From NCBI RefSeq assembly GCF_018138715.1, contig NZ_JAGSHX010000006.1:9672001-9736000 (forward strand): 64,000 bases of DNA, written 5' to 3'. The notes under the pieces are model-generated. The model saw only the letters and a program-made list of their open reading frames with translations. It ran no database searches and was not told the origin of the DNA. Shown here in pieces: positions 45,934 through 61,147 of this stretch. The stretch's first letter is position 1, and each line of letters begins with the position of its first letter. The translations under genes and the position numbers were made by a program. This stretch comes from Streptomyces asiaticus (GTDB taxonomy: Bacteria; Actinomycetota; Actinomycetes; Streptomycetales; Streptomycetaceae).

Positions 45934-46497
45934 TCAGGCCCGCCGTGCCGCCACGCAGCGGGCGTGGGCCGCCAGGAGGGTCGGCATCGCGAGCCGCGGG
46001 CCGTCCGGGTCCTTGGCCGCGTCGTCCCAGCGGCGCAGCGCGACCGCGTCCGTGGCCAGCGGATGCGCCGCGAACTCCGCCACCTCGCGCTCGTCCATCG
46101 GGCCGCCCTGGACCTTCAGGGACGCGATCGACGCCGGGCTGAGCAGGGCGTGGTACGCCGCGTCGGTCGCCACCAGATAGCGCTTGGCGGGGACGTGCTG
46201 GGCGATGACCCACGCCGCCCGTTCGCTCACCCGGCGGCGGGCGAACTCGGCGCCCGCCACTTCGTGTGGCACGCCCGGGTGTTCGGCCCGGACCGGGCGG
46301 GCCCGGCCGATGTCGTGCAACGCCGCGGCCACCACCAGTTCGTCGTCCGCGCCCGCGTCCATCGCAAGCCACGCCGTCTGGAGCGCATGTGTCCGCTGGT
46401 CGACGGCCTCTCCGTCGTACGGCAGGCCCGCGAGGCCGTCGACGAGCGCGGTCAGTTCCTCGCCCGTGAGCGGGTCGAGGGGGGCAGGGGCGGTCAT
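45934..46497 (-). CDS. PhnZ-like HD-domain diiron oxygenase (phosphonate degradation)
   Basis: The 187-residue protein has the HD pattern of PhnZ/TmpB oxygenases, which split alpha-hydroxyphosphonates oxidatively. Visible residues are Tyr27 and Glu30 in LPYDGEAV, His37, His61-Asp62 in AALHDIGRA, His78, His101 in AQHVPAKRYL and Asp158 in RRWDDAAK. These align with PhnZ Tyr24, Glu27, His34, His58, Asp59, His80, His104 and Asp161 as I recall them, with near-constant offset. A QGGPM block is also shared. The ATG overlaps the stop of the IMPase-like gene. No PhnY hydroxylase gene is present. Confidence 0.85.
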   Translation of the reverse strand: MTAPAPLDPLTGEELTALVDGLAGLPYDGEAVDQRTHALQTAWLAMDAGADDELVVAAALHDIGRARPVRAEHPGVPHEVAGAEFARRRVSERAAWVIAQHVPAKRYLVATDAAYHALLSPASIASLKVQGGPMDEREVAEFAAHPLATDAVALRRWDDAAKDPDGPRLAMPTLLAAHARCVAARRA

Positions 46498-47324
46498 CGG
46501 TCCTCCGTTCCGCGGATGGTCTCGGCCAGTTCCTCCGAGAGCCGCGGCGTGGCCGCGACCACACCCGACCAGCGGCGGGTGAGGTCGGGGTCGATCTCCA
46601 GCGGGCGGCCGTGCACATCGATCACCGCGCCGCCCGCCGCGGGGACGGTGACCATCGCGGCCGCCAGGTCGACGATCCGGTGGGTGTCGGAGCCGGCGTC
46701 GGCGAAGGCGTCCGTCGACCCCTCGGCCACCAGCACCGCTTCCAGGCAACTCGTGGACAGGATGCGGATCCTGGCCGCCCGCGTCGCCACCCGCCACCAC
46801 GCGTCGGCGATGTGCGGCTGGGGCCTCAGCAGACTCACCGCCGCGCCGTCCAGCTCCGTACGGCCGTTCGTGCGGTACGCCGACGGCTGCCCCGCCACCG
46901 TGTGCCAGCAGCGCCCGGTGTCCAGCCAACTGGTCAGCGCCTCGGTCGGCACACCGTCCACCGCGATGACACCCGCGAACGCGGACAGCGGGACACCCGA
47001 GGCGGCGTTCGCCGTGCCGTCCACCGGGTCGGTGACCAGCGTGACGGCGGATCCGTTGTCGATGCTGCCCAGTTCCTCGCTGAGCAGGTTGATCCGGTGG
47101 GCGTTCACCACCTCGGCGATCGCGGTGTCCACCAGGATGTCCAGCCGCATCGTGGGCGTACCGTCCGCGCCGATCTGTACCTTCTCGGCCAGCTGGGCCC
47201 GGTCGTACGCCTCGCGCGCGGCGCGGAACGCGTCCGTGGCGGCGCGGGTCGCCGCGGCCAGCGCCGGGTGGACGCCGGAGGGCAGGTGCGGTTCGGGCAC
47301 CGGCCAGGGGATCCGGCCGCTCAT
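46494..47324 (-). CDS. Inositol monophosphatase-family phosphatase in the phn operon
   Basis: The 276-residue protein carries the Mg-binding motifs of the IMPase/FBPase fold: LLSEELGSID (Glu), LVTDPVDGTANAASG (DPxDGT) and AFADAGSDTHRIVDLAAAMVTVPAAGG. It is placed after phnM and before the PhnZ-like gene, overlapping the stops on each side. It could remove phosphate from a phosphonate-pathway product such as a ribose phosphate. The standard C-P lyase pathway uses PhnP for a late step, which is missing here. The link is an inference. Confidence 0.8.
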   Translation of the reverse strand: MSGRIPWPVPEPHLPSGVHPALAAATRAATDAFRAAREAYDRAQLAEKVQIGADGTPTMRLDILVDTAIAEVVNAHRINLLSEELGSIDNGSAVTLVTDPVDGTANAASGVPLSAFAGVIAVDGVPTEALTSWLDTGRCWHTVAGQPSAYRTNGRTELDGAAVSLLRPQPHIADAWWRVATRAARIRILSTSCLEAVLVAEGSTDAFADAGSDTHRIVDLAAAMVTVPAAGGAVIDVHGRPLEIDPDLTRRWSGVVAATPRLSEELAETIRGTEDR

Positions 47325-48610
47325 GCCGCGTCACCTCCCGAGCGCGCTCCCGAATTCGTTCCCGGGTCCGACGCCGAGCCCGCTTCCGAGGCCGCGCGCA
47401 GCACGGCCGCCACGACCGGCCAGGGGCGGCCCGGTTCGGCCAGCACCAGGTCGGCCCGCAGGCCCGCCTCGAGCCGGCCGCGGTCCGGGAGACCGGCGAC
47501 GTCCGCGGCGCCGCCGGTGACCAGGCCGACCGCCGCGGGCAGCGGCGCCAGCCCCTCCTCGGCGAGCAGCAGCGCCGCCGAGAGCAGCCCCGACGGCAGG
47601 TAGTCGGAGGCGAGCGCGGTGACCAGGCCGCGCCCGACCAGCTCACGACCGGAGGCGTTGCCGTTGTGCGAGTGGCCGCGCAGCACGTTGGGCGCGCCCA
47701 TCACCGTCGGCATGCCGTGCTCGTACGCGGCCTCCGCGGCGGCCGCCGTGGTGGGGAACTCCGCCACCGTGCCGCCCCGTGTCCGCAGCTCCTCGATCTC
47801 CTTCGCCGAGCTGGGATCGTGGCCGAGCAGCCGGATACGGGACGCGCGGGTCTGCTCGCCGAGCCAGTCCAGCGCCTCCTCACGGACGTCGAGGCGGCCG
47901 TCCCGGTCCTCGATCAGCCGGTCCACGTAGGCGCGGGCCTCGTCCTCGGTGACCCCGCGGGTGCCGACGAGATACCGCTCGTAGTAGCCGCGGTCCGCGT
48001 ACTGCCCCTGGCCCGGGGTGTGGTCCTCGTGCGACACCAGGACCGGTCCGCGCCCGGCGCCACCGATCCGCTCCAGCCGCTGCCGCAGTCCGGCCAGGCC
48101 CTCCGGGCAGCGGACGTCCAGCCGGTGCAGGATCCGGTGGTCCACCAGGCCGTCGTCGCCACGGCTCTCCACGGCCGCGCAGATCCGCCGCGCGTTCTCC
48201 AGGGTGCGGCGTATACCGCGCCCGCCGCTCTCCTCGAACGCCGCGCCGTGGTAAGCCGTGGTGACGCCGGCCGCGCGCAGCTTGCCCTCGAAGGACAACA
48301 GCGCGAATTCCAGGGGCAGTTCGGCCCCGGGGCGCGGCAGCAGCTCCTTCTCCAGACCGTCGCTGTGCACATCCACCAGACCGGGCAGACACAGCATCCC
48401 CTGGCCGTCGACATCGGCCTCCACACCGGCCGGGTGCGGTGCGACCTCCGCGATCCTGCCGTCCCGGACCGCGACCAGCGCGTCGTCCAGCACCCGGTCC
48501 GGCAGCACCGCCCGTACGTGCCCCAGCACGTAGTCCCGGGGCGGGCCGCCCAGCGTCCAGCCTTGAGCCGGCGCCTCGGCCGGCCCCCTGCTCACCAATC
48601 CCGTGCTCAT
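47321..48610 (-). CDS. phnM: Ribosyl methylphosphonate triphosphate diphosphatase PhnM
   Basis: The 429-residue amidohydrolase removes pyrophosphate from the ribosyl 1-phosphonate triphosphate made by PhnGHI with PhnL. It has MLCLPGLVDVHSDGLEKEL (metal-binding HxD/H region), VTTAYHGAAFEESGGRG, VLVSHEDHTPGQGQYAD and GAPNVLRGHSHNGNASGRELV, with DYLPSGLL. The ATG overlaps the phnL stop. Confidence 0.93.
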   Translation of the reverse strand: MSTGLVSRGPAEAPAQGWTLGGPPRDYVLGHVRAVLPDRVLDDALVAVRDGRIAEVAPHPAGVEADVDGQGMLCLPGLVDVHSDGLEKELLPRPGAELPLEFALLSFEGKLRAAGVTTAYHGAAFEESGGRGIRRTLENARRICAAVESRGDDGLVDHRILHRLDVRCPEGLAGLRQRLERIGGAGRGPVLVSHEDHTPGQGQYADRGYYERYLVGTRGVTEDEARAYVDRLIEDRDGRLDVREEALDWLGEQTRASRIRLLGHDPSSAKEIEELRTRGGTVAEFPTTAAAAEAAYEHGMPTVMGAPNVLRGHSHNGNASGRELVGRGLVTALASDYLPSGLLSAALLLAEEGLAPLPAAVGLVTGGAADVAGLPDRGRLEAGLRADLVLAEPGRPWPVVAAVLRAASEAGSASDPGTNSGARSGGDAA

Positions 48611-49368
48611 GCCGCCGCCTCCAGCATCTGATCCGGCGCGCCCTGCCGGGCGATCCGGCCGTCGCCGACGAACACCACGCGGGACGCCAGCCGCCGGATG
48701 GCGTCCATGTCGTGGAAGACGGCGAGGACGGCCACGCCCTGCCCCGCCAGCGAGTCGACCAGCTCGAGCGCGGCCTCCCGGTTGGCCGGGTCCAGCGCGG
48801 ACACCGGCTCGTCGAGCAGCAGCAGCCGGGGCGGCTGCACCGTGCCCGCGGCGAGGTTCACCCGCTGGCGCTCACCGCCGGAGAGGACACCGCAGTCCAC
48901 GTCCCACAGCGTCTCGTCGAGGTTGAGCCTGCGCAGCGCGGCCGCGGCGGCCTCCCGCGCCTCGCCCCGGTCGAGCCCGCGCCGCCGGGCGGTCGCGGCG
49001 ACCACCTCCAGCGGGCCGGTGCGCGGCGGGGCGGCCAGGAACTGCGATACGTAGCCGAACTCCCGGCCGCGCAGCCGGGCCATCCGCCGGTCGGGCAGTG
49101 TGGTCAGCTCGACCGTCCCGGCCGCCGTGCGCAGCCGTACGGAGCCGGAGTCCGGCAGGTAGGTGCGGTACACACAGCGCAGCAGCGAGGACTTGCCCGC
49201 ACCGCTGGGGCCCGCGAGGGCGACGTGTTCGCCGGTGTGCACATCGAGGTCGACACCGCGCAGCGAGGGGACGGTCCGGCCGTCGATGCTGTGCAGGGTG
49301 AAGGACTTGTACAGGGCGCGGACGGTGAGGACCGGGTCCTCCGCGCGATCGGTGGGGGTGGTGTTCAC
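48607..49368 (-). CDS. phnL: C-P lyase ABC-type ATPase PhnL
   Basis: The 253-residue ABC protein starts GTG at 49368 with GGAGGTGAG upstream. It has a Walker A (LAGPSGAGKSSLLRC), a family-specific FGYVSQFLAAPPRTGPLEVVA Q-loop, the signature LSGGERQRVNLAAG, Walker B (LLLLDEPVSALD) and the H-loop (VLAVFHDMDAIRRL). PhnL acts with PhnGHI in attaching the phosphonate to ribose and is not a transporter. It lies 5 bp downstream of the PhnJ-PhnK gene. Confidence 0.92.
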   Translation of the reverse strand: MNTTPTDRAEDPVLTVRALYKSFTLHSIDGRTVPSLRGVDLDVHTGEHVALAGPSGAGKSSLLRCVYRTYLPDSGSVRLRTAAGTVELTTLPDRRMARLRGREFGYVSQFLAAPPRTGPLEVVAATARRRGLDRGEAREAAAAALRRLNLDETLWDVDCGVLSGGERQRVNLAAGTVQPPRLLLLDEPVSALDPANREAALELVDSLAGQGVAVLAVFHDMDAIRRLASRVVFVGDGRIARQGAPDQMLEAAA

Positions 49369-49373
49369 CGGGC

Positions 49374-51239
49374 TCACCTCCGGGCGGCGGCGACGAGCCG
49401 CTGGGTGTAGGGGTGGTGGGGGTCGTGGAAGAGCTGGTCGGTCAGGCCCCGTTCGACGACCCGGCCCGTCTGCATGACCAGCGTGCGGTCGGTCAGCGCC
49501 TCGATCACGGAGAAGTCGTGGCTGACGACCACGGCGGCCACGTCCCGCTCGGCGAGCAGGCTCCGCAGCAGATCGAGCACACCGGCGGCAACGGAGGCGT
49601 CCAGACCGGTGGTGGGTTCGTCGAGCAGCAGCACCGGCGGCTCGGTGGCCAGGGCCTTGGCGATCTGCACCCGCTGCCGCATACCGCCGGAGAAGGTGTG
49701 CACCGGGTCGTCCATGCGGGACAGCGGCACCTCGACCCGGTCCAGCAGCTCCGCCGCGCGGCGCCGGATGGCGTGATAGCCGCGCCAGCCCGCCGCGGTC
49801 AGCCGCTCGGCGATATTGCCACCGGCGGAGACCCGCAGGTCGAGTCCGGCCGCCGGGTCCTGGTAGACCACGGCCATCGAGTCGATCCGCAGCCACCGCC
49901 GTACGGCCGCGGGCAGCGCGAGCACTTCGGACGCGCCGCCGTCCACCGAGGCGAGGTGGACCTGTCCGGCCGTGGCGGGCTCGTCGCCGACGACGCAGCG
50001 CAGCACGGTGGACTTGCCGGAGCCCGACTCGCCGATGAGGCCCAGGGCCTCGCCCGGCGCCACGTCGAAGGAGACGTCCCAGGCGGCCACCACCGCACCG
50101 GTGGACGGGCTGATCGCGGTGGAGTACTCAGGACCCGTACCGGGTACGGCGGAGGCGCCGCCCGCGCCGTGCACCTTGCCGATGCCGTCGACGCGCAGGG
50201 CCCATTCGGGGCCGCCGGCCCGGGTCCCGCGGGCGGGCGCGGGCGTGTCGTCCGCCGCGGTGGTTCCGGCCGTCGGCGTGTCGCGGCGTCCCGCGCGGGC
50301 CCGCGGATCGGGAAGCAGGGCCAGCGGCGCGCGCTCCCGGTGGGCGGCGGTGTCGGCGTCCCCCGCCTGCACCCGTGCGCACCACTCGGTGTCGCTACAG
50401 GCGAAGGCGCCCTCGGTGCCCGCGTTGACGAGGTAGACGTCGTCGCTGCCGCAGAACTTGCAGCGCCCGCCCGGCTCGTGCTCGACCTCGAACGGCACGT
50501 CGTCGAAGGTGAGGGGCCGGACCTCGGTGTGCGGGGGCACCGCGTGGATGCGCTTCTCGCGGCCCGCGCCGAAGAGGTTCAGGTGCCCGGCCTCGTGCAG
50601 CCGGGGCACGTCCCAGCGTGGAATGGGGCTGGTCGCCATCACATAGCGGCCGCCCACCAGCACCGGGTAGCCGGTGCTCGCGGTGATCACGCCGTTGCGG
50701 ACGATGTCCTCGTAGAGGCTGACCCACATCGCGGAGTAGTCGCCCTCGGCGTGCATCCGCGCGCACTCGGCCACCGACTTCTGCACACCGCGCAGCGGCT
50801 CGGGCACCGGCACCTGGTACACCAGCACATGCTGGGCGCCCAGCTCCTCCTCGGGGACGCGGTGGCGGGTCTGTACGACCGTCGCCTCCCGGGTGTCGGC
50901 GGACTCGTCGCACCCGGTGGTCTGCGCGATCATCCGGCGCAGATTGGTGGCGTTGACCCCGGCGTCGTCGCCCTGGTCGATCACCTTCACCGTGTCGTCG
51001 GCGCCGATGACCCCCAGCGTGATCTGGAGTCCGCCCGAGCCCCAGCCGCGCGCCACCGGCATCTCCCGGGAGCCGAACGGGACTTGGTAGCCGGGCACAC
51101 AGACCGCGGCCAGTGCGGACCTGCGGATCTCCCGCTTGGCGTCCTCGTCCAGGATCCCGGCGGGCGGCCTGCCCGCGTCCGCCTCGGCGACGAGCGCGCC
51201 GATCCCGGCCGCCCGCGGTGTGTCGTACGTCGTGCTCAT
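49374..51239 (-). CDS. phnJK: Fused C-P lyase PhnJ and ABC ATPase PhnK
   Basis: One 621-residue frame covers both proteins. Residues 1-295 are PhnJ, the radical-SAM C-P lyase: YQVPFGSREMPVARGWGSGGLQITLGVIG, QTTGCDESADTREATVVQTRHRVPE, and the Cys set C260, C263, C281 and C287 in GGRCKFCGS through ACSDTEWC. After a Pro/Ala-rich linker (about 296-345), residues 346-621 are PhnK with [42 protein letters not shown] and VVVSHDFSVIEAL. In E. coli these are separate subunits that dock together. No stop or restart codon is seen in the linker. The ATG at 51239 overlaps the PhnI stop. Confidence 0.92.
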   Translation of the reverse strand: MSTTYDTPRAAGIGALVAEADAGRPPAGILDEDAKREIRRSALAAVCVPGYQVPFGSREMPVARGWGSGGLQITLGVIGADDTVKVIDQGDDAGVNATNLRRMIAQTTGCDESADTREATVVQTRHRVPEEELGAQHVLVYQVPVPEPLRGVQKSVAECARMHAEGDYSAMWVSLYEDIVRNGVITASTGYPVLVGGRYVMATSPIPRWDVPRLHEAGHLNLFGAGREKRIHAVPPHTEVRPLTFDDVPFEVEHEPGGRCKFCGSDDVYLVNAGTEGAFACSDTEWCARVQAGDADTAAHRERAPLALLPDPRARAGRRDTPTAGTTAADDTPAPARGTRAGGPEWALRVDGIGKVHGAGGASAVPGTGPEYSTAISPSTGAVVAAWDVSFDVAPGEALGLIGESGSGKSTVLRCVVGDEPATAGQVHLASVDGGASEVLALPAAVRRWLRIDSMAVVYQDPAAGLDLRVSAGGNIAERLTAAGWRGYHAIRRRAAELLDRVEVPLSRMDDPVHTFSGGMRQRVQIAKALATEPPVLLLDEPTTGLDASVAAGVLDLLRSLLAERDVAAVVVSHDFSVIEALTDRTLVMQTGRVVERGLTDQLFHDPHHPYTQRLVAAARR

Positions 51240-52357
51240 CGGCATTCCTTTCCGGCGGGCTCGGCGGCCCGTGCGGGCGGTTCCTCTCCCGCCTCGGCGG
51301 CGGCCCGCATGGCTTGCTTGCGCTCGGTCATCGAGCGGAAGGTGACGTAGTGGGGGAGCTTCAGGTGTTCCAGGAAGCCACCCGAGTCGAGGCCGTCGAT
51401 GGTGAGCAGCAGCAACTGCTCCAGCGGCCCGTTGCGGCCGAACCTGCGGTTGGCGATGTCCAGGTTGGCCATGGCGATCGCCTTGCGCTCGTTGTGCCCG
51501 AAGCACAGGCCGTAGCCGACGTCGAAGCGCGTACGGTCCTCCTCCGCGCCGTCCAGGTCCTCGATGGCCTCGGCCTCGGTGACCCGGAACTCGCCGACGG
51601 CGACGGGGTTTCCGGTGTGCGGGTGGCGGACGCGCAGCGGCAGCCGGCCGTGGCGCAGTTCGCCCAGGGTGATCTCGTGTACGTCGCCGTCCGGCCCGAG
51701 GATCGAGCGGTACCACAGCGCCACCAGCGCACCGGACTCGGAGCGGGCCATGGCGGCCAGGACGGCCGACCGGTCGGCGGGCGGCCGGGCGGGCTTGCGG
51801 GTGATGTCGTGCGGCTCCGGATCGTCGGCTGCCCGCCCGTCGGCGACCAGGTCCATCGTGCGGAGCAGGTCGAGGAACCGGCGGGGACTGCGCTGGTCCT
51901 CGGTGCGGTCCGCGCCGTTCGCGGTGTCCGGGACCTGGGGTGACGGCTCCGGCGGACCATCGGGCCGCTCCAGCAGCCGGCCGGTGTAGTCGGAGGTACG
52001 GCCGAGCAGCTGCGGGCCGTCGGGTTCGCGGAACGCCGGGACGATACGGCGCAGCACGGTCATCTCACCGGGGTCGACGGGTTCGCTGACCGCCAGCCGC
52101 GGCAGGGTGGACCGCTGCGCGCGCAGCAGGTGCGACGCCTCCAGAGTGTCGCCCTCGGCCTGCCGGAAGGCGTCGGCCGCGGTGGGCTCGTCGTACAGAC
52201 CGGCCTCGCCCATCACCCGGTCGACGGCCAGCCGGAAACGGGCCGTGATCTGCTCGGTGGACGCCCATGCCGCGGACGCGTAGTCGCGCTTGCGGCGGAC
52301 CAGGTCCTCGGCGGCGAGAATCGCCTCGAGTCCGCCACGTGCTCCCGAGTACCCCAT
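51236..52357 (-). CDS. phnI: C-P lyase core subunit PhnI
   Basis: The 373-residue protein has the PhnI N-terminus MGYSGARGGLEAILAAEDLVRRKR and blocks FRLAVDRVMGEAGLYDE, TVLRRIVPAFREPDGPQLLGRTSDYTGR and FDVGYGLCFGHNERKAIAMANLDIANRRFGR. It forms the nucleosidase-type core which, with PhnG, PhnH and PhnL, couples the phosphonate to the ribose of ATP. The ATG overlaps the phnH stop by one base of the ATGA type. Confidence 0.94.
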   Translation of the reverse strand: MGYSGARGGLEAILAAEDLVRRKRDYASAAWASTEQITARFRLAVDRVMGEAGLYDEPTAADAFRQAEGDTLEASHLLRAQRSTLPRLAVSEPVDPGEMTVLRRIVPAFREPDGPQLLGRTSDYTGRLLERPDGPPEPSPQVPDTANGADRTEDQRSPRRFLDLLRTMDLVADGRAADDPEPHDITRKPARPPADRSAVLAAMARSESGALVALWYRSILGPDGDVHEITLGELRHGRLPLRVRHPHTGNPVAVGEFRVTEAEAIEDLDGAEEDRTRFDVGYGLCFGHNERKAIAMANLDIANRRFGRNGPLEQLLLLTIDGLDSGGFLEHLKLPHYVTFRSMTERKQAMRAAAEAGEEPPARAAEPAGKECR

Positions 52358-53085
52358 CAGTCCTCCTCCTCGGCCACGACACCGGCCACGACAACGGCCA
52401 TGGCATCGGTCGCGGCACCGGTCGTGTCGTCCACGGCATCGGCCAGGATCACGGCACCGGCCACGATCGTGACGGTCGTGCTGCGCGGCAGGCCCATGAC
52501 GCGGCCGTCGGGCGTGGCCAGCAGCAGATCGACCCCCGCCGGGAAACCGCCGACGGCCTCGGCGCGCGCCGCCACGAACCCCTCGGGCACACCCTGCGGG
52601 GCGATGTCCCGTTCACCCGGTACGCCGGGCCCGGACAGCCGCCAGGCGGACGGTCCGCCCTCCAGCGCGGTCACCGGCAGACACAGCACGGCGCCGTCCT
52701 CCGGCGCTTCGGCGGTGCCCCGGGCCAGCCGCGGGATCTCCTCGGCCGCGACGGGCCGTACGGCGGCGGCGAGCCGGGCCTTCTCCAGCGGCACCGCGGG
52801 CGCGTCGGTGGCCACGCTCACCACGTCCGACCAGCGCCGCGCGCCGTCCTCCTCCAGCACGTGGACGCCGGTGCCGAGGTCCGCGAGCGCGAGGACCGGC
52901 AGCAGCGCGGACGGCACCACGCCGATGACGTCCGAGGGGAACCGGGTCACCGTGCCCGGCCGCGCCAGGGCGTCGAGCACGGCGCGGAAGACGCCCTGCG
53001 CCTGGGCGGGGCGCAGCTTGGCCGCGGCCACCAGCTCCGCGGTCCCGGCGGCGTCCGCGGCGGGAACCATCTCAAGGGCGGTCAC
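52357..53085 (-). CDS. phnH: C-P lyase subunit PhnH
   Basis: The 242-residue protein starts GTG at 53085, overlapping the phnG stop. It contains AQGVFRAVLDALARPGTVTRFP, ALLPVLALADLGTGVHVLE, CLPVTALEGGPSAWRLSGPGVPG and DLLLATPDGRVMGLPRSTTV, all PhnH-like. Its last 37 codons are low-complexity (VAGAVILADAVDDTTGAATDAMAVVVAG), from short repeats of CGGCCACGACA-like DNA. It joins the PhnG2H2I2J2 core complex. Confidence 0.9.
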   Translation of the reverse strand: MTALEMVPAADAAGTAELVAAAKLRPAQAQGVFRAVLDALARPGTVTRFPSDVIGVVPSALLPVLALADLGTGVHVLEEDGARRWSDVVSVATDAPAVPLEKARLAAAVRPVAAEEIPRLARGTAEAPEDGAVLCLPVTALEGGPSAWRLSGPGVPGERDIAPQGVPEGFVAARAEAVGGFPAGVDLLLATPDGRVMGLPRSTTVTIVAGAVILADAVDDTTGAATDAMAVVVAGVVAEEED

Positions 53086-53516
53086 GTCAGCTCCTCGAAT
53101 TCGACGACGGTCGGGGCGAGCTCCGCCCACTCCTGGTCCTCCCGCCGCTCCCGGCGCGCCGCGATCCGTTCGCACAGCGCGTCGATCTCGGCGGTCCGGG
53201 GGCGGCCGGACTGGGCCTCGGCGTCGAGCACCGCGGCGGCCAGCGCGGCGGCGCGGTCGTCCCCGAGGCGCATGGCCCAGCCGCGGTGGCCGGCGAGCTC
53301 CACCTCGGCCCGGCAGGCCAGGACGTCACCGAGCAGGAAGCGCTGCTCCAGGACCGGCTCGCGGACCTGTGCGGTCACGCAGCCGACCTCGGGCCCCACC
53401 AGCACCCGTACCCGCGCGCCGTCGGCGATGCAGGCATCGGCCAGTTCGATCAGTTCGGCCTTGTCGGCCTCGGCCAGCAGGGCACAGCGATGCTCCCTGC
53501 TCATGACGTATGTCAC
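53082..53516 (-). CDS. phnG: C-P lyase subunit PhnG
   Basis: The 144-residue protein (from GTG 53516, where AGGAG is 5 bases upstream; ATG 53504 is an alternative) has HRCALLAEADKAELIELADACIADGARVRVLVGPEVGCVTAQVREPVLEQRFLLGDVLACRAEVELAGHRGWAMRLGDDRAAALAAAVLDAEA. These suit PhnG, the small core subunit. It overlaps phnH and starts 14 bp after phnF. Confidence 0.9.
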   Translation of the reverse strand: MTYVMSREHRCALLAEADKAELIELADACIADGARVRVLVGPEVGCVTAQVREPVLEQRFLLGDVLACRAEVELAGHRGWAMRLGDDRAAALAAAVLDAEAQSGRPRTAEIDALCERIAARRERREDQEWAELAPTVVEFEELT

Positions 53517-53529
53517 CACTTCTCCTGGT

Positions 53530-54294
53530 TCATTGCGGCCTGACAACTCTCTGCGGTGTGACGGCCACGTCGGCGACGGCCCTGCGGTCGTCGAGCTCGA
53601 CCACGACACGGACGGCGTCGGCACGGGTCCAGGTGCGGCTGCACATCAGCACGTCGCCGATCGCCTCGTCCCGGCTGACGCTCTCCACCAGCCAGGCGGG
53701 CTGACTGCTCTCCATGCGCAGGACGCGCAGGACTTCCGCCGGTGGGACGTCGATGCTGACCCGGCACCAGGCCCGCATCGGCCGCACCCGCCCCGTCTGG
53801 CGGAGCACCTGGTCGACGGAGTCGACGGCGTGCAGGGCCAGGTCCAGATGGGGCACCTCGGCCACCGGGATCCACTCATGGACCCAGGAGGCGAGCAGGT
53901 CGTCGATGTAGAACTCGCGCACCACCTCGTGCACCGGCGAGCCGGCCGGCCGCTCGAACCTGTCCGCCAGCTCGGCGGGCAGGGGGATCGTGCGCACCGA
54001 CTTGACCAGGGCCCGAGGCGTGGCGCCCGCCGCGGCGATCGTGGCGGACCACGACGGCGGGACGCTGCGCGAGATGACGTAGTCGATCCGCCGGTTGACG
54101 AAGGTGCCCGACCCCTGGGTCCGGCGGACGACGAACCGGCGCTCCAATTCCTGTACGGCCGCCCGTGCGGCGGCCCGGCCCACGCCGAACCGCCGGGCGA
54201 TCTCCGCCTCGCTGGCCACCCGTGTGCCATGGGCACACTCGGCCAGCTCGGCGGACAACCGCTCCGCGATCTCCAGATACCTGGTCGCATTCAC
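53530..54294 (-). CDS. phnF: GntR-family regulator PhnF
   Basis: The 254-residue protein begins with a GntR helix-turn-helix (YLEIAERLSAELAECAHGTRVASEAEIARRFGVGRAAARAAVQELERRFVVRRTQGSGTFVNR) and continues with an effector domain of the HutC/UTRA type (LVKSVRTIPLPAELADRFERPAGSPVHEVVREFYIDDLLASWVHEWIPVAEVPHLDLALHAVDSVDQVLRQTGR). GTG start at 54294 has a weak ribosome site. It heads the phn operon and likely represses it when phosphate is available. Three ACCGGGA-like repeats lie upstream. Confidence 0.92.
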   Translation of the reverse strand: MNATRYLEIAERLSAELAECAHGTRVASEAEIARRFGVGRAAARAAVQELERRFVVRRTQGSGTFVNRRIDYVISRSVPPSWSATIAAAGATPRALVKSVRTIPLPAELADRFERPAGSPVHEVVREFYIDDLLASWVHEWIPVAEVPHLDLALHAVDSVDQVLRQTGRVRPMRAWCRVSIDVPPAEVLRVLRMESSQPAWLVESVSRDEAIGDVLMCSRTWTRADAVRVVVELDDRRAVADVAVTPQRVVRPQ

Positions 54295-54377: not shown

Positions 54378-54519
54378 AGTTGTTTCGCGATTGGCTCCGG
54401 CCGTACCGGCGCCCGCCCCGGCCGCCGGTCGGGGCGGGCGCGGCGGGCCGTAGGCTCGATCCGACGGAGAATGTGTGGTCAGCCGGGCGGGGAAACAGCG
54501 GCCCGCGGTCGGAGGAGCG

Positions 54520-55500
54520 ATGTCAGGCGCGTGTTGTGCCCCCACGTCCGGGGGCGGCGAGGAGATTCCCGAAGGGTCCGCCCTGCGGGTCCGGGCCCCG
54601 GAGCGGGACCGGGCGCAGGGGCTGCGCGCCATGCTGCGCATCCCCGGAGGGACGTTCTCGATGGGGGGCGACGACGCCGACGCGTTCCCCGAGGACGGGG
54701 AGGGCCCGGTCCGGGAGGTGCGGCTGGCACCGTTTCTCATCGACGCGACCACCGTCACCAACAGGCAGTTCGCGGCGTTCACGCGCAGCAGCGGCTACCG
54801 GACCGACGCCGAGCGCCACGGCTGGTCCTTCGTGTTCTACGCACTCGTCCACCCCGAAGCCCGGCGCATGGTGCGCGACGGCACGGTGGCGCAGGCGCCC
54901 TGGTGGCTCGCGGTGGACGGGGCGTGCTGGCGGGCCCCCTACGGGCCGGGGTCATCATGGACCGATCTGTCGAACCACCCCGTCGTCCATGTCTCCTGGC
55001 GCGACGCGGCCGCCTACGCGGCGTGGGCGGGCAAACGCCTGCCCACGGAGGCGGAGTGGGAGATGGCGGCGCGTGGCGGTCTGGAGCGCGCCCGTTACCC
55101 CTGGGGGGATGAGCTCCTGCCTCGGGGACAGCACCGCTGCAACATTTGGCAGGGGCAGTTCCCGCAGGTCAACACCGGTGAGGACGGGTATCTGGGAACC
55201 GCGCCGGTCAAGACCTACCGAGCCAACAACTTCGGCCTGTACAACACATCCGGCAATGTGTGGGAGTGGTGCTCCGACTGGTGGAGCACCACATGGCACG
55301 CGGCCGACCGCCCGGAGACCCGCCGTGACCCGGCCGGACCTCCCACCGGGGAGGCGAAGGTGATCCGCGGCGGCTCCTATCTTTGCCACGCGTCGTACTG
55401 CAACCGCTACCGGGTCGCCGCGCGCACGTCCAACACACCGGACAGCAGCACCGGGCACATGGGATTCCGCTGCGCGGCGGATCCGCCCCCGACCCGCTGA
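54520..55500 (+). CDS. Formylglycine-generating enzyme (sulfatase maturase)
   Basis: This 326-residue enzyme turns the catalytic Cys of sulfatases into formylglycine. It has the SUMF/FGE fold (MLRIPGGTFSMGGDDADAFPEDGEGPVREVRLAPFLIDATTVTNRQFAAFTRSSGY; VVHVSWRDAAAYAAWAGKRLPTEAEWEMAARGGL; YPWGDE; NTSGNVWEWCSDWW) and the active-site Cys pair at 289 and 294 in GGSYLCHASYCNRYR. The ATG at 54520 has GGAGGAG upstream. It lies directly upstream of a sulfatase gene in the same direction, so they are an enzyme-substrate pair. Confidence 0.95.
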   Translation: MSGACCAPTSGGGEEIPEGSALRVRAPERDRAQGLRAMLRIPGGTFSMGGDDADAFPEDGEGPVREVRLAPFLIDATTVTNRQFAAFTRSSGYRTDAERHGWSFVFYALVHPEARRMVRDGTVAQAPWWLAVDGACWRAPYGPGSSWTDLSNHPVVHVSWRDAAAYAAWAGKRLPTEAEWEMAARGGLERARYPWGDELLPRGQHRCNIWQGQFPQVNTGEDGYLGTAPVKTYRANNFGLYNTSGNVWEWCSDWWSTTWHAADRPETRRDPAGPPTGEAKVIRGGSYLCHASYCNRYRVAARTSNTPDSSTGHMGFRCAADPPPTR

Positions 55501-55512
55501 CCACGCTTTTGG

Positions 55513-55541
55513 TTGACACCACTTCGGGAGCAGGTGAGACT
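55513..55541 (+). promoter_or_regulatory. Candidate sigma70-like promoter of the sulfatase gene
   Basis: TTGACA at 55513-55518 and GAGACT at 55536-55541 are separated by 17 bases in the 115-bp gap between the FGE and sulfatase genes. The -35 is a perfect match; the -10 is moderate. Confidence 0.5.
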
Positions 55542-55551
55542 TACACCGCCT

Positions 55552-55573
55552 ACTGGTAAGACCAGTTAACTGG
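55552..55573. promoter_or_regulatory. GntR/FadR-like operator pair ahead of the sulfatase
   Basis: ACTGGT-AAG-ACCAGT (55552-55566) is a 15-bp palindrome matching TNGTNNNACNA. An overlapping CCAGTTAACTGG (55562-55573) is a 12-bp perfect palindrome. They lie just after the candidate promoter, a typical repression site. The regulator is not encoded in the window. Confidence 0.6.
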
Positions 55574-55615
55574 AGCGTCCTCGGATCGATCTGTCCATGC
55601 CAAGGAGCGTCCTGG

Positions 55616-57883
55616 ATGACCAACGCCTCTCCTCATTCGCCGCCCATGAGCGGCACTTTTCAAGGCACGATCGGCACCACCTACGAGGAGTCGACTCCGT
55701 GGTGGCCCGAGCAGCAGACGCTTCCCGAGGACACGCCCAATGTCGTGGTCATCGTGCTCGACGACGTCGGCTTCTCCGATCTCGGCTGTTTCGGCTCGGA
55801 CATCGACACGCCGGCCATGGACGCCCTCGCCACCGGTGGCCTTCGCTACGCGAACTTCCACACCACCACGCTGTGTTCGCCGACCCGTGCCTCCCTGCTG
55901 ACCGGCCGGAACCACCACTCCGTCGGCATGCGGATGCTGTCCAACTTCGACACCGGCTTCCCCAGCGGGCGCGGACAGATCACCAAGGCCGCCGCGATAC
56001 TGCCCGAGGTGCTGCGCGACAACGGCTTCAACACCATGGCCGTGGGCAAGTGGCATCTGGCGCCGATGGAGCAGACCACCGCGTCCGGGCCGTACACCCA
56101 GTGGCCGCTGTCCCGCGGATTCGAGCGCTACTACGGATTCCTGGAAGCCGAGACGGACAGCTTCTATCCGGAGCTGTTCTACGACAACCACGCGGTGGAT
56201 CCGCCGAAGAGTCCGGAAGAGGGCTATCACCTCAGCGAGGACCTGGTCGACCGGGCGATCGAATTCGTCACGGATCAGACGTCGGTCACTCCGGACAAGC
56301 CCTTCTTCATGTATCTGGCGTTCGGCGCGGCGCACGCCCCGCACCAGGCTCCCCAGGAATACCTGGAGAAGTACCGGGGCCGGTTCGACCACGGCTGGGA
56401 CGTCGAGCGCGCCACCAGGCACGCCCGCCAGATCGAACGGGGCATCCTGCCGGAGGGCACCGGACTGGCGCCGCACAACCCCGGGGTCCTTCCCTGGGAC
56501 GAGCTGTCGGACGACGAGAAGAAGCTGTCCGCACGCCTCCAGGAGGCCTATGCGGCGATGGTCGACCACACCGACCACCACATCGGCCGGCTCATGGAGT
56601 TCCTGGAGCAGGTGGGCCAGATGGAGAACACCATCACCATCCTGCTCTCGGACAACGGAGCCAGCCAGGAAGGCGGGCAGAAGGGTTCGCTCAACCCCAC
56701 CGCCTTCCAGAACGGGATCTCCGAGGACTTCGAGGAGATGCTGGTGCGGATCGATGAGATCGGCACCACGCGCGCCCATGCCAACTATCCCTGGGGCTGG
56801 GCACAGGCGGGAAACACGCCGTTCAAGCGCTACAAGCAGAACACCCACGAAGGCGGTGTCCGCTGCCCGCTCATCGTGAACTGGCCCCGGGGACTGCCGC
56901 GCACCGGCGAGATCAGGCAGCAGTTCCACCATGTCAACGACATCGCCCCGACCCTGTTCGAACTGCTCGGTCTGCAGGCTCCTGAGGTCTTCAACGGCAT
57001 CCCGCAAATGCCGATCCACGGTGTCAGCATGACCTACACCTTCGACCAGCCGACCGCGCCGACGCGCAAGGAAGCCCAGTACTTCGAGATGTTCGGGCAC
57101 CGCGCGATCTGGCACGACGGCTGGAAGGCCGTCGCCTTCCACCAGCGCGGATCGTCCTTCGACGATGATCAGTGGGAGCTCTACCACCACGACACCGACT
57201 TCTCCGAATGCCGCGACCTGGCGCGGGAGCGGCCCGAGCAACTCCAGAAGATGATCTCCCGCTTCTGGGTGGAGGCGGGGAAGTACGATGTGCTGCCGCT
57301 GGACGACCAGGGATTCGCCCTCCGGGCGAAGATTCCGCGTCCCGGCTCTCCGCGCAAGCGCACCACCTTCACCTACTACCCCGGCATGGCCCATCTGCCC
57401 GGCGCCGCGGTGCCACCGGTGATGAACCGCGCGCACCGCATCACCGCGTTCGTCGACCGGGACGCCACCTCGGACGAGGGCGTCCTGGTGTCCCTGGGCA
57501 ACATCAGCAGCGGATACGTCCTGTACGTCAAGGACAACCGGCTGGTCTACGAGTACAACTTCCTCGGCACCCGGTACGCGGTGACCTCGACGGAAGAACT
57601 CCCGACCGGCCCGGCGGAGCTGACCTTCGAGTTCGTCAAGACCGGTGACAGGCAGGGTGTCGGACACCTGTACGTGTCGGGAAAGCCGGTCGGCTCCGAG
57701 GCCATTCCACAGGTCCTCCCGCACTTTTTCGGATGGCAGGGCCTCGACGTCGGCCGGGACACCCTGTCGCCCTCCTCACCCAGCTACGAGGGCGAGTTCG
57801 CGTTCACCGGAGGGTTCGAGAAGCTCGTCTTCACGGTCGCGCCGGACGAGGAGAGCACGGAACCCTTCGAGCGGATCGACTGA
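55616..57883 (+). CDS. Sulfatase (arylsulfatase/alkyl-type I)
   Basis: The 755-residue protein has the core motif TLCSPTRASLLTGR, with Cys87 the residue turned into formylglycine and Arg91 in the same motif, and VVVIVLDDVGFSDLGCFGSDIDTPAMDALA with the metal-binding Asp pair. It lacks a signal peptide, so it is probably cytosolic, unlike many sulfatases. The C-terminal 200 residues (from about RAHRITAFVDRDATSDEGVLVSLGNISSGY) form a beta-sheet region of the kind found at the end of this subfamily. The ATG has AGGAG upstream. The substrate may be an aryl or alkyl sulfate. Confidence 0.94.
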   Translation: MTNASPHSPPMSGTFQGTIGTTYEESTPWWPEQQTLPEDTPNVVVIVLDDVGFSDLGCFGSDIDTPAMDALATGGLRYANFHTTTLCSPTRASLLTGRNHHSVGMRMLSNFDTGFPSGRGQITKAAAILPEVLRDNGFNTMAVGKWHLAPMEQTTASGPYTQWPLSRGFERYYGFLEAETDSFYPELFYDNHAVDPPKSPEEGYHLSEDLVDRAIEFVTDQTSVTPDKPFFMYLAFGAAHAPHQAPQEYLEKYRGRFDHGWDVERATRHARQIERGILPEGTGLAPHNPGVLPWDELSDDEKKLSARLQEAYAAMVDHTDHHIGRLMEFLEQVGQMENTITILLSDNGASQEGGQKGSLNPTAFQNGISEDFEEMLVRIDEIGTTRAHANYPWGWAQAGNTPFKRYKQNTHEGGVRCPLIVNWPRGLPRTGEIRQQFHHVNDIAPTLFELLGLQAPEVFNGIPQMPIHGVSMTYTFDQPTAPTRKEAQYFEMFGHRAIWHDGWKAVAFHQRGSSFDDDQWELYHHDTDFSECRDLARERPEQLQKMISRFWVEAGKYDVLPLDDQGFALRAKIPRPGSPRKRTTFTYYPGMAHLPGAAVPPVMNRAHRITAFVDRDATSDEGVLVSLGNISSGYVLYVKDNRLVYEYNFLGTRYAVTSTEELPTGPAELTFEFVKTGDRQGVGHLYVSGKPVGSEAIPQVLPHFFGWQGLDVGRDTLSPSSPSYEGEFAFTGGFEKLVFTVAPDEESTEPFERID

Positions 57884-60269: not shown

Positions 60270-61147
60270 GGTCGGTACTCCTGGTTGAGGTCGGCCGCCG
60301 ACACTCCGGACAGTGCCTTGCCCAGCGTCGGAACGGCGGCGATCAGCCTGCGTGTGTAGGCATGCTGTGGGTCCTCGTACACCTGCTCCGTGGATCCGGT
60401 CTCCACGATCTGCCCGGCGTGCATGACCGCGACCCGGTCGCACACATGGCGGACCACGGACAGGTCGTGGGAGACGAAGACCAGCGTGAGGGACAACTCG
60501 TCGACCAGGTCGGCGATGAGGTTGAGCACCTGGGCCCGTACGGACACGTCCAGGGCGCTCACCGGCTCGTCGGCCACGATGATCTTCGGGCGGGGGGCGA
60601 GGGCGCGCGCGATCGAGATGCGCTGCCGCTGGCCACCGGAGAACTGGTGCGGATACCGGTTCGCCGCGTCGGCTCGCAGGCCGACGGCCTCGAGCAACTC
60701 GGCCACCCGCTCCCGGCGGTCCCCATGCCCCTGTGCCACGAGTGGCTCGGCCACGATGTCGCCCACGCGCATGCGCGGGTCCAGCGAACTCATCGGGTCC
60801 TGGAACACGAGCTGGAGCCGTTCGCGGACGAACTTCAGCTGTCTCTCCCGGAGCCCGGTGATGTCCCGGCCGTCGATCGCGACGCTGCCGCTGGTGGGGC
60901 GGTCGAGCCCGGCCAGGATCCGCAGCAGGGTCGACTTGCCGCACCCCGACTCGCCCACGATGCCGAACCGCTGCCCCTGGGGGACGGCGAAGCTGACGCC
61001 GCGCAGGGCGTGCACCGGCGGGCTGGAGCGGCGCAGTGAGGTACGAGGCCGTTGGTAGACGCGCGTGACGTCGCGGACGCTGATGGCGTCCACGGGGCCG
61101 GTCCGCGGCCCGGGCGCGAGGGGGGCGCTGGTCGGCTGCTCAGCCAC
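60266..61147 (-). CDS. Dipeptide/oligopeptide-type ABC importer ATPase (DppF-like)
   Basis: The 293-residue protein has Walker A in IVGESGCGKSTLLRILAG, signature [16 protein letters not shown], Walker B in IIVADEPVSALD, H-loop SHDLSVVRHVCDRVAVMHAG, and the C-terminal peptide-transporter-type YTRRLIAAVPT region. It would power import of peptides, nickel, or other solutes such as sulfate esters or sugars. It follows DppD-like ATPase with an 8-base overlap. Confidence 0.92.
   Translation of the reverse strand: MAEQPTSAPLAPGPRTGPVDAISVRDVTRVYQRPRTSLRRSSPPVHALRGVSFAVPQGQRFGIVGESGCGKSTLLRILAGLDRPTSGSVAIDGRDITGLRERQLKFVRERLQLVFQDPMSSLDPRMRVGDIVAEPLVAQGHGDRRERVAELLEAVGLRADAANRYPHQFSGGQRQRISIARALAPRPKIIVADEPVSALDVSVRAQVLNLIADLVDELSLTLVFVSHDLSVVRHVCDRVAVMHAGQIVETGSTEQVYEDPQHAYTRRLIAAVPTLGKALSGVSAADLNQEYRP

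Follow-up and report, generated by a model that had tools for sequence, protein, structure and literature searches.

In Escherichia coli, C-P lyase, which cleaves the tough carbon-phosphorus bond of phosphonates, is built from a PhnGHIJ core together with the ABC ATPases PhnK and PhnL, and PhnJ and PhnK are separate proteins (PDB 4xb6, 7z15-7z19; PMC9947105). In one gene of Streptomyces asiaticus the two are fused. This gene lies in the window, a 64,000-nucleotide stretch of contig NZ_JAGSHX010000006.1 (positions 9,672,001 to 9,736,000), and it raises the question of whether such a fusion is genuine and how an enzyme with its ATPase permanently attached would work. In the E. coli study, PhnK and PhnL form a double dimer, and the core is opened by ATP turnover; catalytic mutants of PhnK or PhnL abolish growth on phosphonate, and a lone PhnK bound to the core is disordered and incompetent for ATP hydrolysis (PMC9947105). 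The features of the locus are listed in Table 1.

Table 1. Features of the C-P lyase locus in the window, with residue numbers of the fused protein where given.
Feature	Coordinates	Strand	Basis
Inositol monophosphatase-like gene after phnM	46494..47324	-	PF00459; 39/50 fused loci including the window
phnM-type amidohydrolase	47321..48610	-	NF011984, above cut-off
phnL-type ABC ATPase	48607..49368	-	TIGR02324 best, 224.7 vs cut-off 256.3
phnJ-phnK fused gene	49374..51239	-	621 aa, stop codon included; Pfam and NCBIfam profile matches
PhnK-type ABC ATPase half, residues 346-621, with beta1-beta2 insertion	49377..50204	-	
Variable linker, residues 316-345	50205..50294	-	Low column conservation, pLDDT, pN/pS
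Conserved C-terminal extension of PhnJ, residues 288-315 (DxDxxxH…P…LP…R)	50295..50378	-	Alignment, pLDDT
C260-X2-C263-X17-C281-X5-C287	50379..50462	-	Aligned with E. coli PhnJ C241, C244, C266, C272
PhnJ half (radical SAM C-P lyase), residues 29-291	50367..51155	-	Pfam
phnI	51236..52357	-	PF05861; H331/H336 align with E. coli Zn ligands H328/H333
phnH (start uncertain)	52357..53175	-	PF05845 and TIGR03292, above cut-offs
phnG (start uncertain)	53082..53504	-	PF06754 and TIGR03293, above cut-offs
phnF-like GntR/UTRA regulator	53530..54294	-	TIGR02325 best, below cut-off

The fused frame runs uninterrupted from an ATG at 51239 to a stop codon at 49374-49376 and encodes 621 amino acids. This ATG, which overlaps the phnI stop by 4 bases, was taken as the start; the same frame extends upstream of it, giving 780 aa from the first GTG and 896 aa from stop to stop. 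Both halves are complete in the ORF, PhnJ followed by a PhnK-type ABC ATPase. Pfam places PhnJ (PF06007) at residues 29-291 (E 9.3e-114; 379.5 bits against a gathering score of 25) and ABC_tran at residues 388-544. The first-pass annotation had described PhnJ and PhnK as a single 621-residue chain, and the open frame with both domains matched agrees with this. The linker in the window sequence contains neither a stop nor a frameshift, the events that had been named as speaking against a fusion. GC at codon position 3 is coding-like throughout (0.952 in the J half, 0.914 in residues 292-349, and 0.930 in the K half). Against three close Streptomyces loci, pN/pS is 0.19-0.20 for J, 0.09-0.13 for K, 0.00-0.56 for residues 290-320, and 0.17-0.96 for residues 321-346. 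Differences in linker length among close Streptomyces (11 and 2 residues) preserve the frame. From third-position GC, pN/pS, and these frame-keeping length changes, the fused gene looks to be translated as a single frame.

A collection of species genomes was scanned with the whole fused protein, and the scan was ranked by the full-length query, which biases it toward fused relatives. Among the best 80 of 170 relatives (78 loci), PhnJ and PhnK are fused in one ORF in 49, unfused in 28, and cut by a contig end in one. In that case (S. niphimycinicus, L047), the contig stops with the frame still open and the conserved linker segment already visible. Two fused loci (L032, L044) have a PhnK match that is cut short as if by frame errors, and many of the 49 are from isolate genomes. 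Fused organisms include members of Streptomyces, Streptantibioticus, Pseudonocardia, Amycolatopsis, Prauserella, Tamaricihabitans, Saccharopolyspora, Sciscionella, Actinophytocola, Actinoplanes, Mycobacterium, Nocardia, and Rhodococcus. L089 (the L046 locus) and L047/L088 (the same contig end) were dropped before these counts, and the counts given below for 46 aligned fused rows omit L032, L044, L045, L053, and L089. The search for other fusions, which had been proposed as a check, turned up 49 among the 78 loci scanned (best 80 of 170 relatives), and the PhnJ-PhnK fusion is real and more than a quirk of a single genome.

Random draws of genomes give the wider picture. PhnJ was present in 5 of 295 genomes drawn from the genus; the window and G121 are fused, G149 runs off a contig end, and G164 and G236 are unfused. 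Draws from the class (PhnJ in 11 of 394 genomes) and the phylum (15 of 396) contained 10 and 14 other PhnJ genomes, respectively, all unfused, as were all seven PhnJ genomes in a draw of 35 from one family. Many actinomycetes share the fusion, yet in the phylum as a whole another type is commoner. No relative was found on viral contigs. Matches were present in 440 plasmid records, and the 40 listed all match in two to three pieces, with no fusion among those 40. One contig of S. endocoffeicus (NZ_JAERRG010000021.1) carries a fused (L001) and an unfused (L062) C-P lyase cluster about 95 kb apart, and these two clusters offer a natural comparison of the fused and unfused designs.

Phylogenetic trees of the two halves bear on the origin of the fusion. 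The PhnK tree (97 rows) unites 42 of the 43 fused rows in a single clade (SH-aLRT 99), and the neighbors of this clade are the unfused Streptomyces paralogues L062, L090, and L091 (support 91). The PhnJ tree groups 41 fused rows in a single clade (99), with L042 (on a long branch) and L045 apart. When the 42 rows of the fused PhnK clade were held together in the PhnJ tree, the likelihood was above that of the free search (AU p 0.716), and holding together all 43 fused rows, including L045, was not rejected (AU p 0.395 for PhnJ and 0.348 for PhnK). The trees omit L047 and 15 near-copies or partial rows (including L088 and L089). The fused locus L045 is without the conserved motif of the joint and sits beside unfused Streptosporangiaceae rows in both quick trees. 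It comes from a MAG contig (coverage 0.95 according to its name), and its PhnK half is immediately preceded by a GTG with a strong ribosome site; L045 is either a second fusion or not genuine.

Unfused C-P lyases of Streptomyces (L062, L090, L091) and Acidimicrobiia are among the closest tree relatives of both halves. Unlike the fused proteins, they have separate phnJ and phnK genes, which usually overlap, and no DxDxxxH…LP motif, and they share with the fused proteins a Cys-free insertion in PhnK. Of 60 unfused relatives, 48 read NTGA across the last phnJ base and the stop, and 45 have phnK in the +2 frame. Because the two genes usually overlap in different frames in these relatives, fusion would have required a shift of frame as well as removal of the phnJ stop codon. 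A single origin is probable for the main fused clade, and these changes would have occurred at a pre-existing phnJ/phnK overlap, and the fusion would afterwards have spread through several actinomycete families.

The joint between the halves spans 58 residues in the window protein, from C287 (the last cluster Cys) to W346 (the first PhnK strand). It had been called a Pro/Ala linker in the first-pass annotation. A linker does exist, but the label is loose: residues 288-315 are conserved and mostly predicted to be ordered, and residues 316-345 are of mixed composition (7 Ala, 6 Thr, 5 Gly, 4 Arg, 4 Pro, 3 Asp, and 1 Glu). With its first half conserved and mostly predicted to be ordered, the linker is more than a Pro/Ala spacer. 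P305 and R315 are invariant across the 46 fused rows, and D294, D296, H300, L309, and P310 are each conserved in 45 of them. The motif DxDxxxH…P…LP is present in 45 of 50 fused loci compared with 0 of 60 unfused loci; the fused loci that lack the strict pattern are L009, L025, L030, L042, and L045. This extension is an addition relative to E. coli PhnJ, which ends 9 residues past its last Cys. Unfused PhnJ proteins have tails of 6-35 residues past the last Cys (median 10; 53 of 60 measurable), and those of the unfused Streptomyces paralogues are longer and likewise start with R…GDA. The distance from the last Cys to Walker A has a median of 110 residues and lies between 96 and 142 in 49 of 50 fused loci. 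The Nocardia alni fusion (L053) has 275 residues in this stretch, which contains repeat-like sequence.

AlphaFold modeling of the window protein with 112 alignment rows gave a pLDDT of 88.7 and a pTM of 0.86. Block mean pLDDT values were 96, 97, and 95 for residues 281-310 and 69, 50, and 57 for residues 311-340. The high pTM suggests a defined arrangement of J and K, which was unreproduced in a second run with a Rhodococcus row and the 46 fused rows only; that run was poor (pLDDT 57.5, pTM 0.53), with block means of 90, 78, and 58 for the segment, no better than the rest of the PhnJ half. On present alignments the connector segment appears only together with the fusion, and its restriction to fused proteins suggests a role for the joint. 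One possible role, which we put forward tentatively, is that residues 288-315 are a folded connector rather than a spacer and pass the ATPase stroke to the PhnJ cluster domain, possibly through a metal held by the Asp and His residues, with two PhnK permanently attached per core.

The PhnJ half has the residues expected of PhnJ, the alpha-D-ribose 1-methylphosphonate 5-phosphate C-P lyase. C260, C263, C281, C287, and G50 of the window protein correspond to the cluster ligands, the following Cys, and E. coli Gly32, and every one of the 46 aligned fused rows has the residues of E. coli G32, C241, C244, C266, and C272. Gly32 and C272 of E. coli PhnJ are the radical residues. The spacing between the second and third Cys had been given as 17 residues, shorter than the 21 of E. 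coli, and the E. coli PhnJ sequence confirms X21. Among the best 80 of 170 relatives, spacing is 15-17 in 49 of 49 fused loci and 17-26 in the unfused loci (27 of 28 measurable). Proteins of the fused clade have the shortest loop, yet some unfused relatives also have a short one. A short loop as a consequence of the fusion was rejected, as four unfused loci (L061, L067, L069, L072) likewise have 17 residues. The genome from which the window comes encodes a single PhnJ.

Naming of the second half requires some care. The best NCBIfam model is PhnK (TIGR02323), with 221.3 bits against an equivalog cut-off of 302.85, and because the score is below the cut-off we refer to this half as PhnK-type. 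In Methylibium, Halorientalis, and Mesobacillus, the unfused protein encoded at this operon position likewise has no annotation more specific than ABC protein. The tandem ABC proteins OppD/DppD of M. tuberculosis (8j5q, 8wd9) score highly against the ABC half when both of their domains are counted, but they are transporter ATPases, and their single domains reach at most 146.5 bits compared with 222 bits for E. coli PhnK. In the window genome, a search for the PhnK family (E 1e-40; 150 of 268 candidates scored) gave a single further match, a 144.6-bit ABC gene at 60332-61018 of the window, outside the operon. In position, the PhnK-type half lies between the PhnJ half and phnL, and phnL is matched in 50 of 50 fused loci.

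Catalytic residues of the ATPase are well conserved: all 46 fused rows retain the Walker A Lys, the SGG signature, D170/E171 (E171 being the Walker B Glu), Q90 (Q loop), and H204 (H switch). The A-loop Tyr15 equivalent is His in 34, Tyr in 9, and Phe in 3. According to the E. coli study, PhnK docks on the PhnJ insertion domain through PhnJ E149, Y158, D226, D228, and D229 and PhnK R78, R82, R116, and Y118; R82 belongs to a double mutant that does not grow, and PhnK W29 stacks on PhnL (PMC9947105). On the PhnK side of this interface, every fused row (46 of 46) has R78 and R116, Y118 is Tyr in 43 and Phe in 3, and R82 is replaced by Val/Ile in all 46, with an Arg one place earlier. On the PhnJ side, Y158 and D229 are kept in 46 of 46, E149 is Asp in 46 of 46, D228 is kept in 43 of 46, and D226 is replaced by Thr/Ala/Ser. 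The W29 equivalent is Ala in 46 of 46. Compared with E. coli, the window PhnK half therefore has R82 and W29 replaced and an insertion added between beta1 and beta2 (50076-50174, residues 356-388). This region is of several types. E. coli PhnK has no insertion; a CxxC…CxxC (zinc-ribbon-like) insertion is present in 14 of 39 unfused rows (L051, L052, L101, L102, L105-L108, L110, L112, L114, L117-L119); and a Cys-free insertion is present in 46 of 46 fused rows and several unfused actinobacterial rows.

The core genes G, H, I, J, K, and L are all present in the window, with K and L below NCBI cut-offs. Counting the window, phnF, phnG, phnH, phnI, phnL, and phnM are matched beside 47, 48, 48, 49, 50, and 49 of the 50 fused genes, respectively. 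The likely start of phnL is the GTG at 49368, with GGAGG at the extreme end of the fused gene; an alternative GTG at 49377 overlaps the fused-gene stop. Neither E. coli PhnN nor E. coli PhnP matched anything in the window by tblastn (E 1e-3), and blastp (E 1e-8) against the 50 fused loci gave no hit to either, so the last steps of the pathway may differ. The kept residues, the PhnI Zn His residues, and the phn neighbors together indicate a complete-looking C-P lyase core.

Based on residue conservation and gene content, the window locus quite likely encodes a functional C-P lyase whose catalytic subunit PhnJ is made as one polypeptide with its ATPase, PhnK. The PhnJ half would supply the cluster Cys and radical residues, and cleavage of the C-P bond with SAM is its most likely predicted activity. 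By analogy with E. coli, the PhnK half is predicted to dock on the central insertion domain of PhnJ; it would dimerize with a second copy, hydrolyze ATP, and open the core, and a two-fold Phn(GHIJKL)2 complex with ATP-driven opening is the most likely predicted assembly. We infer that the single chain is the functional form and that it affects stoichiometry and opening. It is plausible that fusion fixes the 1:1 ratio and the position of the ATPase. By its anatomy, the fused enzyme would be a tethered motor: each PhnJ would carry its own PhnK, and the ABC pair would be constantly in the core. Because PhnK could not dissociate, there would be two PhnK per core, and the E. coli state with a single PhnK should not exist. 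PhnL would be the sole exchangeable ATPase left. Points against a working lyase are the replacement of PhnK R82 and W29 and PhnJ D226, the A-loop Tyr15 position being mostly His, the poor Rhodococcus-row model, and the scores of both ABC halves below the NCBI PhnK/PhnL cut-offs.

Other explanations differ in what the single frame produces. The single chain might be made and then cut by a protease within the variable linker (about residues 316-345) to give a separate PhnK, and the fusion would then merely coordinate synthesis. We consider this unlikely. Residues 316-345 are variable and residues 311-340 are predicted with low confidence, hence potentially protease-accessible, but no conserved cleavage-like stretch was seen by eye in residues 316-343 of the 46-row alignment, the length from the last Cys to Walker A is fairly steady across fused loci, and the conserved segment before the linker is found only in fused proteins. 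It is very unlikely that the cluster is intact and has drifted to another job, on another phosphonate-like substrate or as a regulatory radical enzyme, with the fusion marking the change. The tested PhnJ and PhnI ligands are kept, and phnG, phnH, phnI, phnL, and phnM are matched in 48-50 of 50 fused loci, which argue against drift; the ABC scores under the equivalog cut-offs and the unmatched PhnN and PhnP are in its favor, and the fused and unfused clusters of S. endocoffeicus (L001, L062) could mean different jobs.

An annotation or sequencing artefact is extremely improbable, whether a frame error that merged two overlapping genes or a separate in-frame start for PhnK. As unfused phnJ and phnK usually overlap in different frames, a one-base error could join them, and the low-coverage MAG locus L045, with its GTG and ribosome site before PhnK, could be such a case. 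For the window, a frame error was rejected since the identical fusion, with the same frame open, recurs at 49 of the 78 other loci scanned (best 80 of 170 relatives), many from isolates; coding-like third-position GC and linker length changes that keep frame in close Streptomyces also speak against it. Regarding a separate start for PhnK, residues 291-355 of the window gene include zero in-frame ATG, GTG, or TTG codons, and a start at GTG290 would give a product bearing the entire linker. In-frame CTG codons at 306, 308, and 348 make a rare CTG start possible. Most other fused genes have ATG, GTG, or TTG codons in the linker, so the argument from missing internal starts is strict only for window-like genes.

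Taking the locus as a working lyase with PhnJ and PhnK in one chain, the fusion is a variation on the known C-P lyase machine that is conserved and is undescribed in the open-access literature searched. Subscription literature may hold a description, and domain databases may already list the PhnJ-PhnK architecture. PhoF, a fungal PhnY-PhnZ fusion, likewise joins two phosphonate-degrading proteins of one pathway, which is oxidative, unlike C-P lyase (PMC10574752). A review of phosphate use in Streptomyces lists phnFGHIKLM in S. cavourensis, termed incomplete, and phnMLKIHFEEDCNKG in S. purpurogeneiscleroticus and phnMLJIHFCED plus phnCEG in S. rhizosphaericus, both counted as phosphonate-degrading (PMC7866108). 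Each of these three sets, as given there, names just one of phnJ and phnK, and labeling of a fused gene after one half may explain this. If so, clusters that have been scored as incomplete would in some instances be whole. Complexes of E. coli proteins with one PhnK bound may lie on or off the reaction path; a natural fusion that would force two PhnK per core allows a direct test of this and of how PhnK ATP use is coupled to PhnJ radical chemistry. A fused complex may also be more stable for structural work.

Genes adjoining the cluster deserve brief mention. Downstream of phnM, at 45937-47324 (minus strand), are two genes, the inositol monophosphatase-like one and another that encodes an HD-domain protein. 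Among NCBIfam models, the HD protein scores best with Phn-HD, a phosphonate degradation HD-domain oxygenase (below cut-off), and 14 of the 50 fused loci and 9 of the 60 unfused loci have a match to this protein. PhnI residues 195-300 have a weak PhnG match (E 4.9e-05), and PhnG and PhnI may share ancestry. At 54475-57883 (plus strand), a formylglycine-generating enzyme-like gene and a gene for a 755-aa sulfatase-family protein are divergent from and adjoin phnF, and this pair likewise adjoins the fused cluster in S. endocoffeicus.
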